Positions 50,542 to 55,764 of a DNA stretch of 64,000 nucleotides are shown piece by piece. Numbering within the stretch: position 1 is the stretch's first letter; every line of letters begins with the position of its first letter. Below the pieces are notes generated by a model. It worked only from the letters and a program-made list of their open reading frames with translations, had not been told where the DNA came from and did not search any database. Origin of the DNA: Deltaproteobacteria bacterium (GTDB lineage: Bacteria > Desulfobacterota > GWC2-55-46 > UBA9637); the NCBI GenBank assembly GCA_030690165.1, contig JAUYHF010000004.1, forward strand, positions 1 to 64,000, read 5' to 3'. A program made the translations under genes and the position numbers.

Positions 50542-51069
50542 TTATTCCAATTCCTTTTCTAAATTAAATTCTATGAAATCAGCCCAGAAGCCGGTATGGA
50601 TAACAGACTCTCTTTCCCATCTTAAAAGTTTGAGGTGGTTTTTTTCCATATCAAGGATCTTTCCGAGGACAGTCTTTTCATCAGGTTCGCGTGCGGCCTT
50701 AAGAAGTCCTGAATAAAAATCCACAGCTTTTTCTTCTGCCCCCATAGCAATTGTTACGGCATTTAATTCGGTTGGATTCTCTTTTAATCTTTTTGTAAGT
50801 TCATTCTCTTCCATAAATATAGGGGCGCTGCTTTTGCCAAAATCCAACGCAACAGCATCCTTATATGCAAGCCAGTTGCCGCCGATTTCTAATGACTTGC
50901 CTATCGCTGTTAATACGTTTATATGTTCAAGCTCTTCCTTGGCAAGATGGCGGAAGACAGTTTTGCCATGTTCATCCTTCAGGGTATTAGAGGCAGTAAT
51001 ATAGAAGTTATAGCCTTTAATTTCTGTGCGGACTGCTATTTTAAGATTCTCTACAGCCTTTTCCTTCAT
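50542..51069 (-). CDS. Rubrerythrin-like diiron protein without rubredoxin domain
   Basis: A 175-residue four-helix protein with diiron ligands in the usual spacing: RTEIKGYNFY, KEELEHINVL, AEEKAVDFYSGLL and DMEKNHLKLL. Rubrerythrins reduce peroxide in anaerobes, receiving electrons from a rubredoxin domain. No C-terminal Cys4 domain is present here. Two genes encoding desulforedoxin-like Cys4 modules lie about 0.3-0.7 kb upstream in the same orientation and may play that role, which is inference. The ATG at 51069 follows AAGGAGG. Confidence 0.87.
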   Translation of the reverse strand: MKEKAVENLKIAVRTEIKGYNFYITASNTLKDEHGKTVFRHLAKEELEHINVLTAIGKSLEIGGNWLAYKDAVALDFGKSSAPIFMEENELTKRLKENPTELNAVTIAMGAEEKAVDFYSGLLKAAREPDEKTVLGKILDMEKNHLKLLRWERESVIHTGFWADFIEFNLEKELE

Positions 51070-51338: not shown

Positions 51339-51602
51339 TTATGATGCTGTGTATAGCCTCATCTTTTTATTGCAGCAGATTGGCTGTAAATTTTCCCCGC
51401 CTTTAATTACCATAAGCTCGCTGCCACACACGGAACATACATACACATGGTTTATAGTCTTAAGCTGAACCATCTCTGTATTACAGCAGACCGGCAGCAG
51501 GCTGCCTCTGCCGCCCCTTATAACAGAGAGTTCAGCGCCGCATACAGGGCATCTGTAAACCCGGCCCAAGGATATTACCCCGAGATTATTACCTGATTTC
51601 AT
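51339..51602 (-). CDS. Tandem desulforedoxin-like protein (two Cys4 modules)
   Basis: The 87-residue protein has two similar modules. The first reads CPVCGAELSVIRGG...CCNTEM, the second CSVCGSELMVIKGG...CCNKKM. The C-x2-C then C-C pattern is that of desulforedoxin and neelaredoxin N-terminal domains, which hold a rubredoxin-like iron centre; zinc is also possible. The ATG at 51602 overlaps the upstream gene's end by 14 nt; a TTG at 51614 is an alternative. The modules are clearly related to the single module in the preceding gene, so tandem duplication is likely. Confidence 0.83.
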   Translation of the reverse strand: MKSGNNLGVISLGRVYRCPVCGAELSVIRGGRGSLLPVCCNTEMVQLKTINHVYVCSVCGSELMVIKGGENLQPICCNKKMRLYTAS

Positions 51603-51792
51603 CTGTTTTCGCAACTAAAGCCATATCTCTGTTGCAGCACTTCGGCTCCATCACGCCGATGCCGCCCTTAGTAACCATAACCATAGCCCCGCATACAGCG
51701 CAGTGGTATGCTCTGCCTACATGTATTGTCCATTCATTTGTCCAATCATCAACAGACCATTCAGCGTCTGCAAGACCTGTCTCCTCTGCCAT
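51589..51792 (-). CDS. Desulforedoxin-like protein (single Cys4 module)
   Basis: A 67-residue protein. An acidic, Trp-rich N-terminus (EWSVDDWTNEWTIHVGRAYH) precedes one module CAVCGAMVMVTKGG...CCNRDM. The ATG at 51792 behind AGGAGGG is better than the upstream in-frame codon at 51843. The module probably binds iron or zinc through four cysteines. It overlaps the tandem-module gene and follows the MidA-like gene by 14 nt. Confidence 0.83.
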   Translation of the reverse strand: MAEETGLADAEWSVDDWTNEWTIHVGRAYHCAVCGAMVMVTKGGIGVMEPKCCNRDMALVAKTDEIR

Positions 51793-51806
51793 AATCCCTC
51801 CTGCCC

Positions 51807-52955
51807 TTACAGCGTATATTTCAAATCCTTGAAACTTAGGCATTTAAGCGCCGGATTTTCTACGCCTTTATGCTGGATGAGAACCTTGAAATCGTCCCCC
51901 ATGCCTCCCGGAAGCGCCAGTTCCTTAATCCCTTGATTCCATTTCAATGTATCTATATCATTGATGCCGATTTCCGCTACTTCTTTCAATTCGTTCCACA
52001 CCCCGATCCCCGTAAGGAAATAAAACTGTGTCGTGAATCCGGTAACCTCCAAACCGGCCTCTCTGCCTGCTAATGCGAGGCTTGTAAAATCAACCTTTGA
52101 TGTTATATCCTGATAGCCGACCCTCTGATAAGGGTTATCGCTCATTGTGTGTCTGTAATAACATTGGATGCCCCCGCCCCTATCTGGATGAAAGAGTTCT
52201 TTTGCGGGAAGACCGTAGTCAATTGTAACAACAAATCCCTTATCAATCAATGCGCCAGCTTTTTTAATCCAGTTCATTGCCCTTAGATTTACCTCTGCGG
52301 TCTGCCCATGCAGAAGCCTTATCCCAAGCCTTTCAAGGTATGCGCTGATTGCAGGGTCTGACAGATCTCCGACTGTTTCTGTAAACCCGCTGTCCTCCAC
52401 ATAGACATAGATTTCCTTTAAACCGTCTGCCTCAATAACGCGATGGATAGGGAATGCGTCAATAAGCTCATTGGAGATAATACAGCCTGTGATACCTGGC
52501 TCTATCTCTTCAATGGCAGAATGGCATGAAAACTCTTCTCTCCGGTCTTTTTCTATCAGGTCTTTTATCAGGGCAGGATTTATATCAACAAGCTTAAACT
52601 CAACAGCGCTGTAAAATTCCTTGAACAACTCCTTGATTGTTCTGCTTATCTGAAATGAAAGCCCTCCACCTCCAGCGCCGGCCTCAACGATTGTAAACAG
52701 CATGGGAGAACCCATTATCTCCCACATCTCTTTAAGCTGTATTGCAATCAGCCTGCCGAATACAGGGCTTATGTCAACATTCGTAAGATAATCGCCTTCT
52801 TTTCCCCATCTTGCGCGGCCGGAGGTATAATATCCCTTGTCAGACCAGTAAAGGGCAGTATCCATAAATTCGGCAAAGGTTATCTTTTCTTTTTCCTGTA
52901 TCCGTCTTTTTATTTCAGAAATGAGCTCAGGATGACCAGAGAAGTTATCAGACAC
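51807..52955 (-). CDS. MidA/NDUFAF7-type SAM-dependent methyltransferase
   Basis: The 382-residue protein has the COG1565 pattern: [40 protein letters not shown], the SAM-binding [29 protein letters not shown] and [19 protein letters not shown]. The mitochondrial relative NDUFAF7 methylates an arginine in complex I during assembly; bacterial roles are mostly unknown. The best start is GTG 52955 with GGAG upstream; an ATG at 53000 lacks a ribosome-binding site. Its leader would carry the large inverted repeat at 53013-53137. Confidence 0.86.
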
Positions 52956-53139: not shown

Positions 53140-53376
53140 TCAGTCTTCCAGTATGCCGACCTTAACAACACCCTCAAATACCTCTTCTCCGTGGGGGGCA
53201 TTGTCAATCTCAGAAGTTAAATCAACACTGGCCGAGTGGGATTCAAAATGATTGCCATCTATCCAGTATAGGTTATCAGTTACATCGTACACAATACCGT
53301 TATACGCTATATAGGCAGGCCTTCCCTCTTTGCCGTCAAACTTTTCTATATCTTTTCTGGAGAACTTTTTTTCCAT
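53140..53376 (-). CDS. Cytochrome b5-like heme-binding domain protein
   Basis: A 78-residue single-domain protein: FSRKDIEKFDGKEGRPAYIA, then YDVTDNLYWIDGNHFESHSASVDLTSEI and APHGEEVFEGVVKVG. The two histidines in the GNHFESH segment are candidate heme ligands, matching small bacterial cytochrome b5 proteins that read WxxGxHxxHxAGxDLT. Here Ser-Ala-Ser stands where AG is common. Likely a cytoplasmic electron carrier. Starts 14 nt after the ferritin-like gene. Confidence 0.83.
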   Translation of the reverse strand: MEKKFSRKDIEKFDGKEGRPAYIAYNGIVYDVTDNLYWIDGNHFESHSASVDLTSEIDNAPHGEEVFEGVVKVGILED

Positions 53377-53390
53377 TTCAGGCTAACCCT

Positions 53391-53816
53391 TTACTTTCGT
53401 ATCCCCAGGGTTGTCTCCCATGTGTCGGCATGGTCTTCTTCGTCAGAGAGTATCTGTTCCAGCATAAGCCTTGTTGCCGGATCGCCCTCTTTTTCACACA
53501 GCTTGATATGTTCCTTATACCGCTTTATAGCGCCGTTTTCCGCGGCAAGGTCATCCTTTATCATCTTTTTAAGCTCTCCGCCCCTTATCACCTCAGTAGG
53601 CTTCTGCACCGGAACGCCTCCAAGATATACAATCTTCTCTGCCAGCATCTCAGCATGTTTCATTTCATCAATGGAGGTTTTCTTGAATATATCAATCACT
53701 GCCGGACTTTCAAGCCCCTCTGCCTCATAGTGATGCCCCATATACTGGACAATAGCGGCCAACTCAAATGCCCTGTCCAGATTTAACGCATCTATAATCT
53801 TTTTGCTCATGTTCAA
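53391..53816 (-). CDS. Ferritin-like / bacterioferritin-like protein
   Basis: The 141-residue four-helix protein has diiron-type ligands: ELAAIVQYMGHHYEAEG, DEMKHAEMLAEKIVYLGG, AENGAIKRYKEHIKLCEKEGD and SDEEDHADTWETTLG. It most resembles small bacterioferritin-type proteins, which store or oxidise iron. The start is the ATG at 53816 (or the second Met two codons on) behind AAGGAGG. It is the first gene of the minus-strand redox and iron cluster. Confidence 0.88.
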   Translation of the reverse strand: MNMSKKIIDALNLDRAFELAAIVQYMGHHYEAEGLESPAVIDIFKKTSIDEMKHAEMLAEKIVYLGGVPVQKPTEVIRGGELKKMIKDDLAAENGAIKRYKEHIKLCEKEGDPATRLMLEQILSDEEDHADTWETTLGIRK

Positions 53817-53921
53817 ATCCTCCTTTTATTTTTAATATCGGGTTTGGTTTTAACATACAACTCTTATTTTTGCAACTAAAAACGATAACCCGAAATCAGA
53901 TTTAGGGTTTTGGGATAAATC

Positions 53922-54773
53922 CTATCCTTTCTTTTCCCTTTCCAATATGGGATAGGCTATATTTGCAATATACGAATTTATGCGCTTAAGATTTGTCAGG
54001 ACATCCAGATGAATGGCGCTTGTATCTATAGATTCTTTTAAGCCGAGATGAAGGCGGTTTATATGCGCCTGCCTTAAATCCCTTTCTATCTCGCCAAGTC
54101 TTGTTTTATGCCTTAATAATTGATGGGCAAGCTCAACATCCCCGCTTGTAAACGCCGATACGCCGAGCTCAAAATTTTCCATAACCTTTTGATGAAATTC
54201 CAGGATCTCCTTTAATCCATCACGGGAAAAGGAGAGTTGATTTTTTATCTTTTTCTTTGCAAGCTCCATAAGATTTTTATCTATCACATCGCCGATATTT
54301 TCAAGATTGTTTGTAAATGTGATTATCTCCATCTCACGTCGCGCCTGCTCTTCAGTCAAACCCTCCTGAGACAGTTTTGTAAGGTAAAGCTTTATCTCCC
54401 TGTCAAGTATATCCACATCGTCGTCTCTTTCCTCTATTTTTTCCTGGAGCGCCGTATTATTGCTTTTAAAAACCTCTATGCTCTGCTTCAGCATATCCTG
54501 CACGATGTCCGCCATCCTGAGCGCCGGAAAACGATTGGGCATGACCCTTACCCACCAGCCGGACGAGTTGGCTTTAGCCCCTTTTTTCCTGAATGCAATT
54601 ATCTCTGGGGGGGTCATTGATTCATTACCGGGACAGAATGGGCATACAGAATGGTTTTTTGTAATTACAGCCTGGGCTTCATGTTCATGCTGAAAATCCG
54701 AGGGCCTTCTGGCCCTTTCAGGGGACATTATAACCCATTCCCTTGTTATGAGGTCTTTTCTTAATTCAGACAT
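53922..54773 (-). CDS. Hybrid protein: GalT N-terminal part fused to PhoU-like domain
   Basis: Residues 1 to about 84 (from ATG 54773) read as the start of galactose-1-phosphate uridylyltransferase: SELRKDLITREWVIMSPERA, HSVCPFCPGNESMTPPEI with zinc-type cysteines, and WVRVMPNRFPAL. Without a break in frame, RMADIVQDMLKQSIEVF then begins a PhoU-like helical domain as found at the C-terminus of Na/Pi cotransporters, continuing to residue 283. The catalytic HPH region of GalT is absent. The join, at about nucleotide 54521, looks like an in-frame deletion fusing two genes, or an assembly chimera. Starts behind GGAG. Confidence 0.8.
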   Translation of the reverse strand: MSELRKDLITREWVIMSPERARRPSDFQHEHEAQAVITKNHSVCPFCPGNESMTPPEIIAFRKKGAKANSSGWWVRVMPNRFPALRMADIVQDMLKQSIEVFKSNNTALQEKIEERDDDVDILDREIKLYLTKLSQEGLTEEQARREMEIITFTNNLENIGDVIDKNLMELAKKKIKNQLSFSRDGLKEILEFHQKVMENFELGVSAFTSGDVELAHQLLRHKTRLGEIERDLRQAHINRLHLGLKESIDTSAIHLDVLTNLKRINSYIANIAYPILEREKKG

Positions 54774-54783
54774 CCGTCGCTTC

Positions 54784-54877
54784 GCTCCATTGAAAATTGC
54801 AAAGTGCAAAATGAAAATTGTAGATTGTATTTTTTAATTTTGCATTCTGCATTTTGCAATCTTCAATTTGCAATTTT
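54784..54877 (-). repeat. Tandem 7-nt repeat hairpin upstream of the GalT-PhoU gene
   Basis: One arm has units ATTGCAA, AGTGCAA, AATGAAA and ATTGTAG. A TTTTTTAA centre follows. The other arm has units TTTTGCA, TTCTGCA, ATCTTCA and ATTTGCA. Both arms show a clear period of 7 and are complementary over most of their length. Confidence 0.78.
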
Positions 54878-55247
54878 AGCCCTTCTTTACCCACTCATCG
54901 ATCTTGTTTCTTATATCTTCAGATAAATCCAGAAATTTTATACCCATGCCTGGCTCATGCTGAGACCTTGGGACAAATTCTCTGCGCCACATAACACAGC
55001 ACTTGCATCTTGCCACAGTTTTGTCAGGGAGGGTAAACTCTATAAAAAACCCTTCTCCAATATTTTTGGGATTAACAGATGTAATGAACATCCCGCCCCT
55101 GCCTATAACCTTTGCGTAGCCGAAAAAACTTTTGCTGTCCGACTCCACCTTGACCTTGAGGACAAGGAGGGGGTTTCTTAAGTTTTTTCTCCTGTCGGGA
55201 CGCAGAAGCACATAGTCCTGTTTGTCTTTTTTGTCACCATTTACCAT
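54876..55247 (-). CDS. PilZ-domain protein
   Basis: A 123-residue protein with an Arg-rich start (RPDRRKNLRNPLLVLKV), a glycine turn GRGGMFITS in place of the usual D/NxSxxG, and a final GMGIKFLDLSEDIRNKIDEWV. PilZ domains bind cyclic di-GMP through the RxxxR and DxSxxG motifs. The first is present, the second is altered, so ligand binding is uncertain. It overlaps the start of the nitroreductase-gene end by a few bases. A diguanylate cyclase and pilus genes are encoded elsewhere in the window. Confidence 0.82.
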   Translation of the reverse strand: MVNGDKKDKQDYVLLRPDRRKNLRNPLLVLKVKVESDSKSFFGYAKVIGRGGMFITSVNPKNIGEGFFIEFTLPDKTVARCKCCVMWRREFVPRSQHEPGMGIKFLDLSEDIRNKIDEWVKKG

Positions 55248-55764
55248 AGTGAATAATACTCTCCAATGTCTTCCTGTTCTTCTCTTCTTTTACAAGAGGG
55301 ACTTTTGGATAACCGATTGCTATTAGCGCAACTACCTCTATATGAGAAGGTATGTCGAGAATATCTTTAACCCTTAATGGGTCAATTGCCGCAATCCAGC
55401 AAGTTCCAAGCCCCTCTGCCGTTGCAACAGCTATCATCTCAGTTAGTGCAATGGTTACATCAACCCACGCATAGTTTTTGCCGTCCGCCTTTCTGACCCA
55501 TGCCTTTGAGGGCTCTGCACATGCGGCAATAATAAGCGGCGCGGCTTTAAACCCTTCTTTTATGAACACATTATCTAATTTTTTTCTATCCGCTTTTTCA
55601 ATTATTATAAAATGCCACGGCTGGCAATTGGCCGCGCTCTGCGCCCTTCTGAGCGCCTCAAGAAGACGCTCAAGCTTGTCTTTTTCTATTTCCCTGTCCG
55701 CAAATTCCCTGATGCTTTTTCTTCGCTCAAACAAATCATAAAAGGTTTTAAGCTTTTCATCCAT
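55234..55764 (-). CDS. Nitroreductase family protein
   Basis: The 176-residue protein fits the FMN-dependent nitroreductase fold: LFERRKSIREFADREI, EALRRAQSAANCQPWHFIII, ALTEMIAVATAEGLGTCWI and LIAIGYPKVPLVKE. Substrates in this family are diverse. The ATG at 55764 behind GGAGG is chosen over an in-frame codon at 55779. ftsY lies 16 nt upstream on the same strand. Confidence 0.88.
   Translation of the reverse strand: MDEKLKTFYDLFERRKSIREFADREIEKDKLERLLEALRRAQSAANCQPWHFIIIEKADRKKLDNVFIKEGFKAAPLIIAACAEPSKAWVRKADGKNYAWVDVTIALTEMIAVATAEGLGTCWIAAIDPLRVKDILDIPSHIEVVALIAIGYPKVPLVKEEKNRKTLESIIHYGKW

Follow-up and report, generated by a model that had tools for sequence, protein, structure and literature searches.

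A GalT–PhoU hybrid reading frame in a deltaproteobacterial draft genome, probably left by a recent deletion between two adjacent genes

Within the window, i.e., the whole analyzed stretch of 64,000 nucleotides, the ORF list, Pfam, and NCBIfam delimit a chimeric reading frame of 283 amino acids on the minus strand (53922..54773), with an ATG at 54773 and a stop codon ending at 53922; an alternative TTG start at 54809 gives 295 amino acids. The first 85 codons (54519..54773, minus strand) are GalT-like and include CPFCPGNE, and the earlier note, made from the sequence alone, was right in describing here about 84 residues of a GalT N-terminus. Residues 1–88 are 88% identical to GalT of the sister genome G003, and residues 4–54 match GalP_UDP_transf (PF01087; E-value 1.7e-4, 22.5 bits vs. 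a cut-off of 22.1). Residues 84–283 (53922..54524, minus strand), which overlap the GalT part (residues 1–85) at the junction, correspond to the PhoU-like tail of a Na/Pi cotransporter, from residue 340 of the 540-amino-acid parent onwards, with 92% identity to residues 340–538 of the G003 protein. PhoU (PF01895) is found in two stretches (E-value 2.4e-23), at 54282–54521 and 53955–54206, each above the cut-off, and residues 84–266 align with the tail (positions 273–456 of 456) of TIGR01013, the NCBIfam model of sodium-dependent phosphate transporters.

Compared with GalT-like proteins (PF01087/PF02744), the fusion has a clear N-terminus and lacks about 250 residues. It retains only the CxxC pair (CPFC) of the N-terminal domain; the second half of this domain, with the HxHxQ stretch of the active site, is missing from the fusion, as is all of the C-terminal domain PF02744, while the HxHxQ stretch and PF02744 are both present in the full-length G003 protein. 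Compared with Na/Pi cotransporters carrying a C-terminal PhoU (PF02690 with PF01895; TIGR00704, NF037997), the fusion has the PhoU-like tail and neither of the membrane domains (PF02690), of which the G003 protein has two. The two PhoU repeats are shared with the PhoU phosphate signalling protein; however, the fusion scores 54.6 bits against the PhoU equivalog TIGR02135, whose cut-off is 130.25, and it derives from a transporter tail.

The upstream neighbor on the minus strand, which we take to be a PilZ-type gene (54876..55247), is kept beside galT in five of six relatives, and the downstream neighbor, presumably ferritin-like (53391..53816, minus strand), is kept beside the Na/Pi gene in four of six. 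Gene order is largely conserved on both flanks by tblastn: upstream genes (the others being, we assume, FtsY and a nitroreductase) are matched in five of the six fetched relative stretches, all except L037, and downstream genes (the others presumably cytochrome b5-like and methyltransferase-like) in four, all except L038 and L040. The gap that separates the PilZ-type gene from the fusion contains an AT-rich inverted repeat (54785–54880), imperfect and about 90 bp long. Copies are dispersed over the genome, with at least 61 matches at E ≤ 1e-3 (counting both strands of the palindrome, and with scores for 40 of the 72 candidates), and a related copy sits in the galT–Na/Pi gap of G003. Rfam gave no match over 53300–55300, the repeat included, and the promoter and terminator scan gave no more sites than shuffled sequence.

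The same locus in relatives contains two separate genes. In all six locus-bearing genomes of the own genus and family (G002–G007), a galT gene of 339–340 amino acids is followed on the same strand, after a gap of 73–116 bp, by a Na/Pi cotransporter gene of 540–541 amino acids; in the seventh relative, the 62% complete genus member G001, neither gene has a match. Some match to the fusion protein is found in 57 of the 58 other genomes searched. Outside the family, the Na/Pi tail occurs in 37 more of the 58 (counted by hand, one match being partial), in reading frames of 451–578 amino acids, with GalT-like genes located elsewhere.

The GalT-like orthologue adjacent to the Na/Pi gene (4973–5989 of L038, and its counterparts) has HSHSQ as its active-site sequence in five of the six relatives; the sixth gave no match in the active-site motif search. 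The earlier note had stated that the catalytic HPH motif was lost: the HxHxQ stretch is indeed absent from the fusion, but the parental gene, as seen in these five relatives, reads HSHSQ instead of HPH. The closest solved structure to the orthologue is that of a GalT-like protein, 1z84, which we take to be the Arabidopsis galactose-1-phosphate uridyl transferase-like protein. The orthologue may not be a true GalT. Two GalT paralogues in the genome of the window have HPHSQ at this stretch.

Three-way alignments with the six relatives and counts of microhomology place the junction at 54517..54526 (minus strand), a zone that fits both parents and contains the shared codons Ala84–Leu85; the earlier note had rightly set the join near 54521. 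In the base-level alignment, the window matches galT to codon 85 and the Na/Pi gene from codon 340, and lacks 1865–1907 bp relative to the six relatives. Both break sites carry Ala-Leu codons in the same phase. Agreement between the sites is 9–14 of 18 bases across the relatives: the highest value, 14 of 18, is seen in G003 (8e-6 of all position pairs), while the other five have 9–11 of 18 (0.2–2.5% of position pairs). The microhomology at the junction is weak and imperfect, 9–11 of 18 in five of six relatives not being strong. As for a repeat at the breakpoints, the dispersed repeat falls outside the break. In all six relatives the Na/Pi gene starts in a different frame from galT, shifted by 1 or 2; hence, the position of the break decides whether a join is in frame, which would be the case for a third of breaks.

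A fusion of two neighboring genes by deletion, one of the origins proposed in the earlier note, is well supported, since all six comparable relatives carry both parent genes intact, next to each other, and in the same orientation, and the flanks are largely conserved. We consider it probable that about 1.87 kb was recently deleted, fusing and disabling the two genes. This would be a single event in this lineage, removing the GalT-like codons from about 86 to the end, the intergenic gap, and the first 339 or so codons of the Na/Pi gene, which encode the membrane part. It may have been an illegitimate, slippage-type deletion at the short stretch of imperfect similarity that surrounds the common Ala-Leu codons, with the in-frame outcome due to a one-in-three chance; both parental functions would then be destroyed, and any protein still made would consist of a soluble helical bundle of the PhoU type preceded by a non-catalytic leader from GalT. 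Illegitimate recombination as a source of small variable segments has been surveyed within bacterial species (PMC2884548). The likeness lies in the loss of a short segment where neither a mobile element nor a long repeat marks the break; in contrast to that survey of within-species diversity, the fusion is compared between species and on assembled sequence.

We also searched for the lost parts, as the earlier note had advised, by family, by protein, and by DNA over the entire assembly (70 contigs, 2.2 Mb in total, with a listed completeness of 100%), and found neither the rest of galT nor the transporter membrane part. There is no PF02690 match in all 70 contigs; the G003 Na/Pi protein matches only the fusion remnant, with no membrane part elsewhere; and the G003 GalT protein matches the remnant and two intact paralogues (50 and 45% identity, on contigs C3 and C42), with no galT remainder. 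A PHO4/PiT-type phosphate transporter (contig C7) and a separate two-domain PhoU (contig C62) are retained, so the loss of galT and the Na/Pi gene need not be lethal: phosphate uptake and GalT-type chemistry may be covered by the PiT-type transporter, the separate PhoU, and the two intact GalT paralogues.

The absence of the missing piece elsewhere in the genome is also less expected if the join is an artefact of assembly or binning, i.e., if galT and the Na/Pi gene are both intact in the organism and the contig is misjoined or represents a minor strain variant. It is, however, weak evidence, as a fragment of 1.87 kb could fall below the length limit of binning and so be missing from the bin. 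We regard such an artefact as rather unlikely, while giving it real weight. The genome is a 70-contig assembly, and dispersed AT-rich repeats, which occur in these intergenic gaps in this group, could disturb assembly; on the other hand, the break lies inside both coding regions and not at the dispersed repeat, and the other neighbors aligned to relatives look full length or nearly so. Assemblers normally need overlaps longer than 14 imperfectly matching bases of 18, and the similarity at the junction is at most this, so that some read should span the join.

The uniqueness of the join would also fit an artefact. A search for the same join in other genomes, suggested in the earlier note, was carried out by protein and by a degenerate pattern and yielded none. 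The protein search of 58 other genomes revealed no join, and the degenerate junction pattern, with one mismatch allowed, is absent from all 62 other genomes of the class, the window's own being the sole match among 63. The scan of 84,980 species genomes, from which records of the own genome may have been left out, returned 15 loci, none of which matches anything N-terminal to residue 84 in the joined reading frame. Many GalT matches of the protein search that run past residue 84 (some to 195) were considered and rejected as joins; mostly they lie in frames of about 330–370 amino acids, the normal length of GalT, and have lower identity. Literature searches found no publication on a GalT–PhoU join.

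Neither half of the fusion shows relaxed selection or decay. The dN/dS values of the window against G003 and G004 are 0.053 and 0.053 for the GalT piece and 0.040 and 0.053 for the PhoU piece; for G003 against G004, where both genes are intact, they are 0.060 and 0.073. At otherwise invariant columns the window has no private residues in either piece, the six intact relatives having 0–3 and 1–7, respectively. Most simply, the join arose very recently or is absent from the organism itself. The lack of decay is equally expected for a recent deletion and for an artefact, hence, it cannot tell the two apart, and selection on the fused product would look alike.

Such selection is assumed if the PhoU-like domain, freed from the membrane part, now acts in phosphate regulation as a soluble protein, is expressed from the start and the expression signals of galT, and carries the GalT piece as a leader or a tag that binds metal. 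The frame is open, the PhoU half keeps its character (dN/dS of 0.04–0.05 to G003 and G004, as above), and AlphaFold models it as a confident helical bundle (residues 81–282, pLDDT mostly above 90). The GalT part (residues 1–79), in contrast, is modeled with pLDDT of about 30; this counts weakly against a functional leader, because the input alignment supported that part poorly, with GalT rows of only 19–22% identity to the first row and probably misplaced. The proposal of the earlier note that a new regulator uses the GalT fragment found no support: the join is seen in one genome only, recency explains the retained sequence, the GalT part keeps the CxxC pair with no HxHxQ half of its domain, and the genome already has a separate PhoU gene. 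A selected new protein of this kind is, in our estimate, very improbable, and more doubtful still is its narrower form, a newborn protein of a single lineage in which the PhoU domain released by the deletion would act as a soluble phosphate sensor with a GalT-derived metal-binding leader.

The case serves mainly as a caution, as a striking combination of domains in one draft genome is explained by comparing neighbors in relatives. If real, the recent deletion would provide a clean case of the fusion and simultaneous loss of two adjacent genes, whose remnants have not yet decayed.

Further downstream, two small adjacent proteins, which have paired Cys motifs and by eye resemble rubredoxin/desulforedoxin, are encoded at 51339–51843, near two proteins that by eye are ferritin-like (50542–51069 and 53391–53816, the latter being the downstream neighbor of the fusion). 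Together these genes look like an oxidative-stress cluster, which is matched in four of the six fetched relatives.
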